Origin: Candidatus Atribacteria bacterium
GTDB lineage: Bacteria > Atribacterota > Atribacteria > Atribacterales > Atribacteraceae
Length of the DNA stretch: 29,943 bases
Reading direction: 5' to 3'
Assembly: GCA_018056205.1 (NCBI GenBank)
Contig: JAGPGC010000002.1
Coordinates: forward strand, 1 to 29,943
In this document: in pieces, positions 1-20,973 of the stretch
How the letters are laid out: every line of letters starts with the position of its first letter
How positions within the stretch are numbered: position 1 is the stretch's first letter
Made by a program: the position numbers and the translations under genes
The notes under the pieces: model-generated
What the model saw: the letters and a program-made list of their open reading frames with translations, nothing else
Database searches by the model: none
Told to the model about the DNA's origin: nothing

Positions 1-270
1 AAACCCAGCTAAGAGAAACTGCTCCCAGCTACTATGTAGTAAGTAAAAACTGTCTCAAACCCTTGATAAATAACCATCAGAAACAGAAAAAGGGGTAACT
101 TCAGTTTAGAGAGAAATGTTAAAAAAGAGCACCTTTTAATAGGGGAAGAAAATTTAAAAAAACCAGAAATATTGAATTTATTATACTTTGGTATTGTAAA
201 AAAATTTTACTAATTATAAAGGGAGAAAATAAGAAAGAATTATCTTACCCTAAATTAAGGAGAATTATGG
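1..270. other. Intergenic left edge, no confident gene
   Basis: AT-rich sequence before the first gene. Short open frames run in from the left edge and stop by about position 111; one of them could be the C-terminus of an upstream gene, but nothing is recognisable. A small inverted repeat (GTAAAA / TTTTAC, about 195-210) lies just upstream of the first gene. No convincing promoter was found; a TTGTAA/TATAAA pair at 194-220 has only a 15-nt spacer. Confidence 0.4.
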
Positions 271-17199: not shown

Positions 17200-18498
17200 T
17201 CAAAGTAGGGTTAGAATTTTTTGGTTGAAGTCAATCAAATGAAAAGAATGGAAATATTTATCCATAGCTTTTTCTATAGATGAAGTAACAATATTTGCCG
17301 CTTGATAGCCATTGTATTTTAAATTTTGGTATAGACAAAATCGAGCCTTTACCACTTCTGGTGAAGACCATATATAGCGGCAGCCAGTTTTGGTCAACCA
17401 AGTTCTCCTTTCAGGAGTTAATGAAAAGAAATCAACCCCCTTTTCTTCTTCTAAAAGCCATTTTTCCCAACGTCTACTTTGATAAACCGCCTGTTCTAAG
17501 CTATTTATTAAATTGGATTTTATGGCAATACTCCCATTTTTATCAAGGTGATTTTCGATGTTTTCACACCTAAGAAGTGCATTGTATTCTTCTTCGGTAA
17601 ATTCAGGACCGACGTTGGCTCCCCCCATGCCTGATTGAGGATAGTCAGCAGGATTTTCAACATAATCGGTATAATGTCCTTTAATAAATGATCCATAGGT
17701 TTCAGCTATTTGAACCAATTGATGAGCTACTTGAGGATCGAAGGTTGTGGTATGAAGATCAGTTCCTACTTTTCCTACAACAAAAATTGGCCATACCTCT
17801 GATAAGCCTCGACTTTGAAGTCGACTCTTTAAGCCTTTGAGAAAATTTTCAAAAACCATTAGATCGGCAAGACCCCCATGGACTTCTTCAGTACCTACTT
17901 CATAAGATATTGGTGGAAATTGATGGTTTCGACGAAAGATCTCGGCATGTTCGATTAATTCCACTGTTCTTGTGATTACTATATCTATTGGTAAAATTGA
18001 ACCAGGGGGAAGGGTTTTATCCACGGTGGGATCAACATGGATTAAATCGTAACCAGCTTCAATGGCAGCTTCGAAAGATTTTTTTATCCAATCCATGCAT
18101 TTTCTTAACGGCCAATTTTCCTGGCTTTGTATATCTTTCAACCAAGGACCACCATGATCAACAGCAATAATAATTGGCCCATTATAATCAATAGTTTCTG
18201 CTTCAAGCTTTACCATTTTTACAAATTCAAACTGATTCATTCCGGTATATCCACCATCTAAATCAACCTGATTAAGAGTGGCGGCGAACTTTATTGGAGC
18301 ATTTGCCCTTTGAGCTGCTCTGAGGGCAGCTTTAATGACTGTCTCCGAATTAGGACAGGCAGCAAAAAGTGTCCGGGGGATGTTCTCTAATCGACTTAAT
18401 TCCCACATCTTCCTCATCAGTAAATCACAGGTTGGTATTCCGAGCTTTTTTGCTTGATTACGAATCGGGCTATTGTCAATATATTTACGATCTAACAT
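17200..18498 (-). CDS. GatZ/KbaZ-like class II tagatose-bisphosphate aldolase, 'non-catalytic' subunit
   Basis: 432 residues, the length of GatZ/KbaZ. Family stretches are FAACPNSETVIKAALRAA, FAATLNQVDLDGGYTG, IIAVDHGGPW, HVDPTVDKTLPPG, SYEVGTEEVHGGL, VVGKVGTDLHTTTFD and KGHYTDYVENPADYP. In enterobacteria this protein supports the catalytic GatY/KbaY aldolase that splits tagatose 1,6-bisphosphate. No GatY is present here, so it may act alone or with a partner elsewhere. It keeps a histidine- and aspartate-rich barrel that could bind metal (inference). ATG 18498 has AAGGAGG about 8 nt upstream. Stands alone on the minus strand. Confidence 0.88.
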   Translation of the reverse strand: MLDRKYIDNSPIRNQAKKLGIPTCDLLMRKMWELSRLENIPRTLFAACPNSETVIKAALRAAQRANAPIKFAATLNQVDLDGGYTGMNQFEFVKMVKLEAETIDYNGPIIIAVDHGGPWLKDIQSQENWPLRKCMDWIKKSFEAAIEAGYDLIHVDPTVDKTLPPGSILPIDIVITRTVELIEHAEIFRRNHQFPPISYEVGTEEVHGGLADLMVFENFLKGLKSRLQSRGLSEVWPIFVVGKVGTDLHTTTFDPQVAHQLVQIAETYGSFIKGHYTDYVENPADYPQSGMGGANVGPEFTEEEYNALLRCENIENHLDKNGSIAIKSNLINSLEQAVYQSRRWEKWLLEEEKGVDFFSLTPERRTWLTKTGCRYIWSSPEVVKARFCLYQNLKYNGYQAANIVTSSIEKAMDKYFHSFHLIDFNQKILTLL

Positions 18499-18820
18499 AA
18501 AATATCCTCCTTTTTAGATTAACAATTGAATTCTGGCAAAATCATAAATTTATTCAAAGCAATTAATCCCGATGCATAGTTTATCATTCAATTTAAACGT
18601 GGTGTGAATATCTTTAGATCTTCATAAAAACCTTAACCGAATTATATCTTTCCTCAATTTTCAAAGAAAAAATTTATAAAATGAATAGCAACTTTTTGAA
18701 ATAATGTTAGATTACTAATATTTTTCGATTATACTACTGTTGCCTACCTAAAATTGATTACTATTTTCCATTAGGTGATAAAATTATAAAAGAAAGATGG
18801 GGGATCTCTTTTAGGTTAAC
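18499..18820. other. AT-rich intergenic stretch with weak promoter candidates
   Basis: This gap separates the divergent GatZ-like and lipA-remnant/nifU genes. On the plus strand TTGAAA (18696-18701) and TATTTT (18719-18724) are 17 nt apart. TTGATT (18754-18759) with GATAAA (18777-18782) is a second weak candidate. No gene, repeat or operator that I can support. Confidence 0.35.
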
Positions 18821-18946
18821 ATGATACCACCTGAATGGATTCGAGTTCGTTACCCAAGTAGTAATACCAATCAAAAGACAATTCAATTCCTTGATGATTT
18901 GAAATTACACACTGTCTGTCAAGGAGCCAGATGGGGTATGAAATGA
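18821..18946 (+). pseudogene. lipA: Remnant of lipoyl synthase N-terminus
   Basis: An open frame of 41 codons from ATG 18821 to TGA 18944-18946. It begins with PPEWIRVRYPSS, ends with LKLHTVCQGARWGMK, and has about 15 residues between. Lipoyl synthases begin with the same layout: P-x-W-L-R-V-x-x-P-S, a helix, then LHTVCEEARCPN, which starts the auxiliary-cluster motif C-x4-C-x5-C. Here the first cysteine is kept, the second is tryptophan, and the frame stops just after. The radical-SAM barrel is missing. Three nt later nifU starts. It is either a decayed or deleted lipA, or a retained small leader peptide coupled to nifU translation. The match is from memory of the family. Confidence 0.7.
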
Positions 18947-18949
18947 ACT

Positions 18950-19786
18950 ATGTGGGACTATACTGAAAAAGTTAAAGATCACTTTCTTCATCCTCGAAAT
19001 GTGGGAGAAATTGCAAATCCCGATGCTGTGGGTATTGTTGGGAATATTATTTGTGGTGATGCTTTAAAGCTTACCCTTAGGGTGGATAGGAAAACCAATC
19101 GAATAATTGATGCTAAATTTCAAACCTTTGGTTGTGCTTCAGCAATTGCTAGCTCATCGGTTTTAACCGAATTATTAAAAGGAAAGACTATTGAAGAAGC
19201 TCAAAAGATAAGTAATCAAGATATTGCGGATTATTTGGGTGGACTTCCAGAAGAGAAAATGCACTGTTCGGTGATGGGGCGGGAAGCCTTGGAAGAAGCA
19301 ATAAAAAATTATAAAGGAGAAACTCAACCTCTCGAACCTCAAGGGAAAATTGTCTGTAAATGTTTTAATGTTTCAGAAGAAAAAATCCGTAAGGTTGCTA
19401 AAGAAAACCATCTTACTACAGTCGAAGAAATTACAAATTTTACCAAAGCCGGTGGTGCTTGTAATTCCTGTATTGGGGAGATTGAAGCCATTCTTAAGGA
19501 TGTTTGGTCAATTAAGGAACCAAAAAAAGTTGAAACAAGGTCTCCAAAGAAACTCACCAATTTACAAAAAATTGCTCTAATCCAAGACATTCTGGAAAGA
19601 GAAATCCGACCAAGATTGCAAGCCGATGGCGGGGATATCGAGTTAATCGATATTGAGGGAAATATAGTTGTAGTAGGTTTTCGGGCTATGTGTGTTTCTT
19701 GCCCTATGGGTGGAGTAACTCTTAAAAGTATCGAGGACAAACTTAAGGAGGTTGTTGGCGAAGAAATAATGGTGGTTGAAAGATGA
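18950..19786 (+). CDS. nifU: Three-domain Fe-S scaffold protein NifU
   Basis: 278 residues with the full NifU layout. The N-terminal IscU-like scaffold has C35, D37, C62 and C106. The central [2Fe-2S] bacterioferredoxin-like domain has CKC (C136, C138) and CNSC (C171, C174). The C-terminal Nfu domain has CVSCPMG (C248, C251). Positions agree with Azotobacter NifU to within one residue. It assembles Fe-S clusters with sulfur from NifS, encoded next with a 4-bp overlap. No nitrogenase genes are nearby, so it is probably the general Fe-S system of an anaerobe. Its only upstream Shine-Dalgarno-like sites lie inside the lipA remnant, suggesting translational coupling. Confidence 0.95.
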   Translation: MWDYTEKVKDHFLHPRNVGEIANPDAVGIVGNIICGDALKLTLRVDRKTNRIIDAKFQTFGCASAIASSSVLTELLKGKTIEEAQKISNQDIADYLGGLPEEKMHCSVMGREALEEAIKNYKGETQPLEPQGKIVCKCFNVSEEKIRKVAKENHLTTVEEITNFTKAGGACNSCIGEIEAILKDVWSIKEPKKVETRSPKKLTNLQKIALIQDILEREIRPRLQADGGDIELIDIEGNIVVVGFRAMCVSCPMGGVTLKSIEDKLKEVVGEEIMVVER

Positions 19787-20973
19787 ACATTCTTTATTTC
19801 GATAATAATGCTACAACTCAAGTTGCCCAAGAAGTATTAGATAGCATGCTTCCATATTTTCGAGAATATTATGGGAATCCATCAAGTATGCATACCTTCG
19901 GAGGGCAGCTTTATCATAAGATAGAAGAAGCTCGGGAACAGGTTGCAGCGTTAATTGGAGCAGAGCCAGATGAAATCATCTTCACTAGTTGTGGAACCGA
20001 AAGTAATAATACCGCACTAATGAGTGCTATCGAAACCAATCCAACAAAAAGGCACATTATTACAACTAAAGTTGAGCACCCAGCTGTTCTAAACTTTTGT
20101 AAACATTTAGGTCGTAAGGGATATCATGTGACCTATTTGCCAGTTGACAGTAAAGGAAGGTTGGATTTAGAGTCGCTGGTACAAGCTATCGATGATAATA
20201 TTGCAGTGGTTTCCATTATGTATGCCAACAACGAAACCGGAGTTATTTTCCCCATTGAGAAAATTGGTCAAATTCTTCGAGAAAGAAAAGTGATTTTTCA
20301 TACTGATGCCGTTCAAGTTGTAGGTAAAATACCTGTAAATGTAAAAGAGCTTCCCGTTGATATGCTTACGCTTTCTGGGCACAAAATCCACGCCCCGAAG
20401 GGAATTGGAGCTTTATATATACGGAAAGGTACACGATTTTACCCCTATATAATTGGTGGCCATCAGGAAGGTGGGCGTCGGGCGGGGACGGAAAACGTTG
20501 CTTTCATTATTGGTTTGGGGAAAGCATGTGAGTTAGCAGCAAAGAACTTGAAAAAAGAAGTTGTTTATCTAAATCGACTAAGAGATAAATTAGAAAGTGG
20601 TTTATTAAATAATTGCCCAGATACCAGTATCAATGGTGATCGAGAAAACCGACTTCCGAATACTTCAAATATGAGCTTTGAATACATCGAGGGCGAAGCT
20701 ATCCTACTTCGGTTGAATGAATATGGCATTTGTGCTTCCTCGGGTTCAGCTTGTACTTCAGGGTCGCTGGAGCCCAGTCATGTATTACGGGCTATGGGTA
20801 TTCGTAACACTGCTATTCATGGCTCAGTGAGGTTTTCCTTGAGTAGATATAATCAGGAGAATGAAATTGATCAGTTGATCGAAGTCATGCCAGCAATAAT
20901 CAAAGAATTGCGCCTTATTTCTCCCTTTGGTAGGGAAAGAATAGTGGAAAATAGTTGTTCACCTCAAAAATAA
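19783..20973 (+). CDS. nifS: Cysteine desulfurase NifS
   Basis: 396 residues, a PLP enzyme that takes sulfur from cysteine and hands it to NifU. The PLP lysine is K201 in LSGHKIHAPKG. The catalytic cysteine C324 lies in the mobile loop SSGSACTSGSLEPSHVL. GTESNN (71-76) and the YFDNNATT start are typical of class I desulfurases of NifS/IscS type. It overlaps nifU by four bases (ATGA). A terminator overlaps its stop codon. Confidence 0.95.
   Translation: MNILYFDNNATTQVAQEVLDSMLPYFREYYGNPSSMHTFGGQLYHKIEEAREQVAALIGAEPDEIIFTSCGTESNNTALMSAIETNPTKRHIITTKVEHPAVLNFCKHLGRKGYHVTYLPVDSKGRLDLESLVQAIDDNIAVVSIMYANNETGVIFPIEKIGQILRERKVIFHTDAVQVVGKIPVNVKELPVDMLTLSGHKIHAPKGIGALYIRKGTRFYPYIIGGHQEGGRRAGTENVAFIIGLGKACELAAKNLKKEVVYLNRLRDKLESGLLNNCPDTSINGDRENRLPNTSNMSFEYIEGEAILLRLNEYGICASSGSACTSGSLEPSHVLRAMGIRNTAIHGSVRFSLSRYNQENEIDQLIEVMPAIIKELRLISPFGRERIVENSCSPQK

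Follow-up and report, generated by a model that had tools for sequence, protein, structure and literature searches.

The 41-codon open reading frame that precedes nifU in the window (the whole stretch of DNA that was analyzed, 29,943 nt of a Candidatus Atribacteria draft genome) is very probably the 5′ portion of a truncated lipA, the gene for lipoyl synthase, left by a deletion in a setting of decaying lipoate synthesis, with nifUS now probably placed behind the former lipA promoter. We reached this view by comparing six genomes of the genus, namely that of the window (G000) and five congeners (G001–G005). G000 is a draft of 75.9% completeness in 202 contigs, and so the absence of a gene from it carries little weight.

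The frame (18821..18946, + strand) translates as MIPPEWIRVRYPSSNTNQKTIQFLDDLKLHTVCQGARWGMK, and its last codons and stop codon (18944–18946) are supplied by the deletion junction and by nifU leader sequence. To its left lies a GatZ/KbaZ-like gene (17200..18498, − strand), identified by profile match and blastn, which in this genus adjoins lipA or nifU on that side. To its right, nifU (18950..19786, + strand) starts 3 nt after the stop codon and is intact, with NifU_N, BFD-like [2Fe-2S], and NifU C-terminal domains and a match to TIGR02000. The nifS cysteine desulfurase gene (19783..20973, + strand), also identified by profiles, shares its first 4 nt with the end of nifU.

The original prediction, made from the sequence by eye, was that the short frame preserves the N terminus of LipA, and a profile search was suggested as a check. 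Residues 4–37 matched positions 2–35 of the 286 in the NCBIfam lipoyl synthase model PRK05481 (E = 6.1e-5), Pfam LIAS_N matched with E = 3.3e-4, and three other models, of LipA or of broader groups containing it, matched with E values of 0.0014–0.0052. None of these matches reaches its curated cut-off (for LIAS_N, 21.5 bits against 27), the cut-offs being set for whole proteins. When ten genomes were searched with the peptide, the best matches outside the window were the LipA proteins of two members of its own genus, G001 (74% identity, E = 2.6e-13) and G004 (68%, E = 4.1e-11). These profile matches and identities confirm that the frame is derived from LipA. At the DNA level, the homologous stretch (18830..18933, + strand), which corresponds to LipA residues 7–40 plus the TG of cysteine codon 41, is 77.9% identical to G001 lipA over 104 nt (blastn, with tblastn in agreement).

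The product of the frame is not a working LipA. LipA carries two cysteine motifs for two [4Fe-4S] clusters, and the 41 residues of the stub contain a single cysteine, which we take to be the first Cys of the auxiliary-cluster motif. Although its matched residues correspond to the N-terminal part of lipoyl synthase (TIGR00510/PRK05481), the radical SAM domain, the other cluster cysteines, and the remainder of the protein are missing.

The gatZ-(lipA)-nifU-nifS block is syntenic across the genus as far as the contigs permit. In G004, gatZ and nifU (from 1839) flank an intact lipA (372–1232 of the reversed contig), with gene order and strand as in the window; lipA and nifU share a single contig and are separated by 606 nt. 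In G001, an intact lipA directly follows gatZ near the end of one contig, and nifU is found near the end of another. No exact overlap as long as 20 nt was found between these two ends, and we infer the join across the contig break, where lipA very probably lies directly before nifU. An intact lipA in front of nifU, which the original prediction had proposed to look for in related genomes, is thus present in G004 and very probably in G001. In the other three congeners (G002, G003, and G005), no lipA separates gatZ from nifU, and no lipA remnant was detected there (best tblastn E = 0.25). We found no second lipA in G000, as far as its 75.9% completeness goes. The stub therefore has the marks of a gene remnant: it is homologous to lipA and occupies a syntenic position at which relatives carry the intact gene, on one contig in G004 and by flanking synteny in G001.

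Between G001 and G004, synonymous divergence is similar for lipA and nifU (dS 0.455 and 0.487), as expected under vertical inheritance; nifU of G000 differs from those of the five congeners with dN of 0.04–0.07 and dS of 0.94–1.11. In a NifU+NifS tree rooted with three Nitrospirota sequences and one Desulfuromonadaceae sequence, G000 is the earliest branch of the genus (the five congeners group apart from it with support of 93; support within them is 74 and 90, and 71 for G002 with G004). Given this branching, lipA at the nifU site would most simply be ancestral, with a minimum of three losses if the partial one in G000 is included. The independent losses depend on this small tree, and another NifU+NifS tree, in which NifS of four genomes is missing, orders G002, G004, and G005 differently. 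As a separate observation on nifUS (18950–20973), among the nifU relatives from other genera listed in the GTDB scan, the closest are mostly Nitrospirota by record title, at no more than 75% identity; the best matches listed from within the family, order, and phylum do not exceed 59% and cover part of the protein only. A horizontal origin of nifUS in the genus is possible.

The translation start signals of lipA have decayed in the window. At the position of the lipA ATG of G001 and G004, the window reads TAG (18812..18814, + strand), as judged by DNA comparison with both genomes and with the LipA protein P0003, whose N terminus is also MV-N. The alignment at this site contains a 4 nt length difference and is partly ambiguous, and still no ATG remains. 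The ATG of the stub falls on a different codon from the lipA start of G001 and G004. Predicted Shine-Dalgarno pairing is −17.4 kcal/mol for lipA in G001 and −13.8 kcal/mol in G004 but only −3.6 kcal/mol for the stub. Truncation, the absence of an ATG at the lipA start, and a weak Shine-Dalgarno sequence are again features of a gene remnant.

An alternative, raised with the original prediction, is that the stub has been retained as a leader peptide: it would be translated, and ribosomes would re-initiate at nifU 3 nt past its stop codon, coupling the two. We consider this unlikely. The distance of 3 nt between stop and start is like that of translated coupling leader peptides, and the open frame and its codon-position bias (described below) speak for the proposal. 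The start signals, however, point the other way, because in the stub both the lipA start codon and its strong Shine-Dalgarno pairing have been lost. It had also been proposed that nifU has no good Shine-Dalgarno sequence of its own outside the stub. The nifU site is indeed weak, with a predicted pairing of −6.8 kcal/mol in G000, but it is equally weak (−6.3 to −6.6 kcal/mol) in the five congeners, none of which has the stub. The stub thus took over no lost nifU function, and nothing needed replacing; translational coupling was rejected as the leading explanation because of this near equality. Nor is the 41-residue frame conserved in relatives, another check that had been suggested: none of the five congeners holds it, the site being occupied by an intact lipA (G001 and G004) or showing no match. 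In a search of about 5.8 billion proteins, restricted to those close to the peptide in length and with exact 5-residue words in common, the only match was the window's own entry, which comprises four member sequences and one contig. The stub thus differs from coupling leader peptides in being absent from relatives, in having weak start signals, and in preceding a site that is about as weak where no stub exists.

Third codon positions account for most of the differences between the stub and G001 lipA (5, 4, and 14 at the first, second, and third positions; n = 23), with dN = 0.157 and dS = 0.98. When 23 neutral changes were simulated, the probability that the frame stayed open with at most nine residue changes was 0.00055. 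With 11 neutral changes it was 0.49, a generous value in that the other 12 changes were assumed to alter no residue. Its open state and third-position bias indicate that the stub frame was under selection for much of its divergence from G001. A fairly recent deletion fits the open frame, and a selected peptide fits it too.

Alignment with G004 supports the suggestion that the stub was left by a deletion, as does the intact lipA at the syntenic position. Relative to G004, 1,329 nt are absent from the window, beginning inside lipA codon 41 and ending ~15 nt (15–16) before nifU. Codon 41 encodes the cysteine after “...CQ-x-AR.” The junction (18933..18935, + strand) reads TG of this codon (TGT in G001 and TGC in G004), then G, and then the nifU leader. 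The original prediction described a cysteine changed to tryptophan; the Trp codon is there, but it is better explained as the deletion junction than as a substitution, and the GMK-stop tail of the stub likewise derives from the junction. We infer a single deletion event, with the G004-like arrangement as the starting point. No shared words longer than 6 nt were found between the two breakpoint flanks of G004, which makes a repeat-driven assembly collapse unlikely. The junction could in principle be an assembly artefact, in which reads from strains with and without lipA were wrongly joined, and the G000 draft does contain a diverged overlap between contig ends (90% identity), a sign of mixed strains. 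We regard such an artefact as improbable, because the gene order and strand are the same as at the G004 locus, the breakpoints lack a repeat, G000 has a single full NifU, lipB is independently broken in G000, and the start region of lipA shows the decay that a real remnant would. (The other NifU match in G000 is a separate 64-residue NifU-like domain on contig C167.) The weakest alternative is a chance resemblance of a random frame to LipA, for which it can be said that the profile matches stay under the curated cut-offs owing to the shortness of the stub; it is contradicted so directly by the DNA homology to G001 lipA and by the syntenic position between gatZ and nifU that we give it virtually no weight.

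The proximity of lipA and nifU had been thought to make sense in terms of cluster repair. The auxiliary cluster of LipA is regenerated by NfuA in E. coli, and by NFU1 for the human enzyme (PMC9585516). We examined the nifU loci of the best 80 of at least 582 relatives in GTDB, with flanks of up to 6 kb and often less. At only one of these 80 loci was lipA found near nifU, and this was the G004 locus itself. The idea that the adjacency reflects Nfu repair of LipA thus finds no support in other lineages, and a conserved lipA-nifU partnership was ruled out on the same count.

The deletion that very probably truncated lipA also reached into the region upstream of nifU. In all five congeners, a TATAAT box is followed by a 28 nt block, ACTAARTATATCGAAWAACTAATAAAGG, which ends 14 nt before nifU. 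With up to three mismatches allowed, a single copy of the block is present in each congener and none in G000, where the residual nifU leader (18935..18949, + strand) is 15 nt long and, by comparison with the congeners, lacks the TATAAT box and all but the final 2 nt of the block. ACTAARTATATCGAAWAACTAATAAAGG is a possible operator for iron-sulfur control; a search for its 16 nt core (up to three mismatches) near Rrf2-family genes at 11 loci gave no convincing copy of the kind expected for an Rrf2/IscR operator. Rrf2-family matches numbered one in G000 (C2:11171-11551) and two in each congener, and the second gene of G000 may have been lost or may simply be unassembled.

Because nifUS is intact and conserved and its own promoter region is gone, its transcription probably depends today on the promoter that once served lipA. 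A −10-like element, TAGGTGATAAAAT (18772..18784, + strand), which by alignment is also present upstream of lipA in G001 and for the most part in G004, is our candidate for the current nifUS promoter element. It was not picked up by a consensus promoter scan of 18490–18960, which gave two promoter-like matches against a mean of 2.9 in shuffled sequences, that is, no more than chance; a terminator scan of the same interval found none. An Rfam scan of three loci gave four matches, all below gathering scores and all at the G005 locus (L055), with none at the window locus (L001) or at L050.

The events may be reconstructed as follows. The genus ancestor would have had the order gatZ (on the − strand), lipA, nifU, nifS, with separate upstream signals for lipA and for nifU. 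In the G000 lineage, a deletion (1,329 nt when measured against G004) that began in lipA codon 41 and stopped 15 nt short of nifU would have removed most of lipA together with the nifU promoter region. The strong ribosome site and start codon of lipA have decayed. Transcription of nifUS would now start at what was the lipA promoter, and the stub would form an untranslated or weakly translated part of the leader. A bolder version, in which nifUS was rewired from its own promoter and 28 nt element to the lipA promoter and the LipA frame now serves as a translated leader that tunes nifU, would mean that a regulatory element was built out of a dead enzyme gene; it seems to us doubtful at best. The stub looks like ordinary gene decay, a deletion remnant rather than a regulatory peptide. 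It resembles bacterial pseudogenes and deletion remnants in being the truncated front of an enzyme gene that has lost its start signals and has a syntenic intact copy in relatives, and it differs from them in that the deletion entered the promoter region of the next gene and the remnant lies within the nifUS leader.

Other lipoate synthesis genes are also in decay. The octanoyltransferase gene lipB is broken in five of the six genomes, including G000, and so the stub fits a wider loss of lipoate synthesis in the genus. Only G004 has a full lipB frame (PRK14345, E = 1.2e-51; TIGR00214, E = 4.8e-46; both over their cut-offs); lipB of G001 has one internal stop, and G000, G002, G003, and G005 have remnants. 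The G000 remnant, which contains stops, lies at the end of contig C99 (C99:90-360, L204), and part of it is also found near 105–180 of the window. There, a residue of lipB (105..180, + strand; 24 residues, E = 0.029, weak alone) precedes the gene at 271–786 and is supported by 89.9% identity between window positions 105–270 and the end of C99. The two versions, about 90% identical and both at contig ends, suggest mixed strains.

LipA matches over the cut-off were found in three of the six genomes (G001, G003, and G004). The G003 gene is a different lipA, located elsewhere (C1:52512-53973, L053) beside an LplA-type gene, with which it may form a replacement pair; G003 has no lipA at the nifU site. 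Further LplA-type genes are present in G001–G004; we found none in the incomplete G000, and in G005 only a broken lipB fragment. GcvH is present in five genomes and was not found in G001. The alternative lipoyl synthase LipS2 gave no match over the cut-off in ten genomes. G005, which is 98% complete, has GcvH and an E2 gene, yet no LipA over the cut-off, intact LipB, or LplA was found in it. The Atribacter laminatus paper (PMC7736352) makes no mention of lipoate or lipoic acid. It describes strain RT761, which may or may not belong to the genus compared here, as requiring yeast extract; this would be compatible with a cofactor need without demonstrating one. A small search of one open-access library found no paper on lipoate gene decay that mentions Atribacter, which does not prove that none exists.

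The odd short frame before nifU thus resolves as gene decay and is, as a feature, ordinary in kind. Stages of loss can be seen within one small genus: both lipA and lipB are intact in G004, lipA is intact and lipB has one stop in G001, and at these loci in the other four genomes both genes are either gone or present as remnants (with the different lipA of G003 elsewhere). The most interesting consequence of the deletion is the probable promoter swap of nifUS, which would make this locus a natural case in which a deletion put an iron-sulfur assembly operon behind the promoter of another gene.
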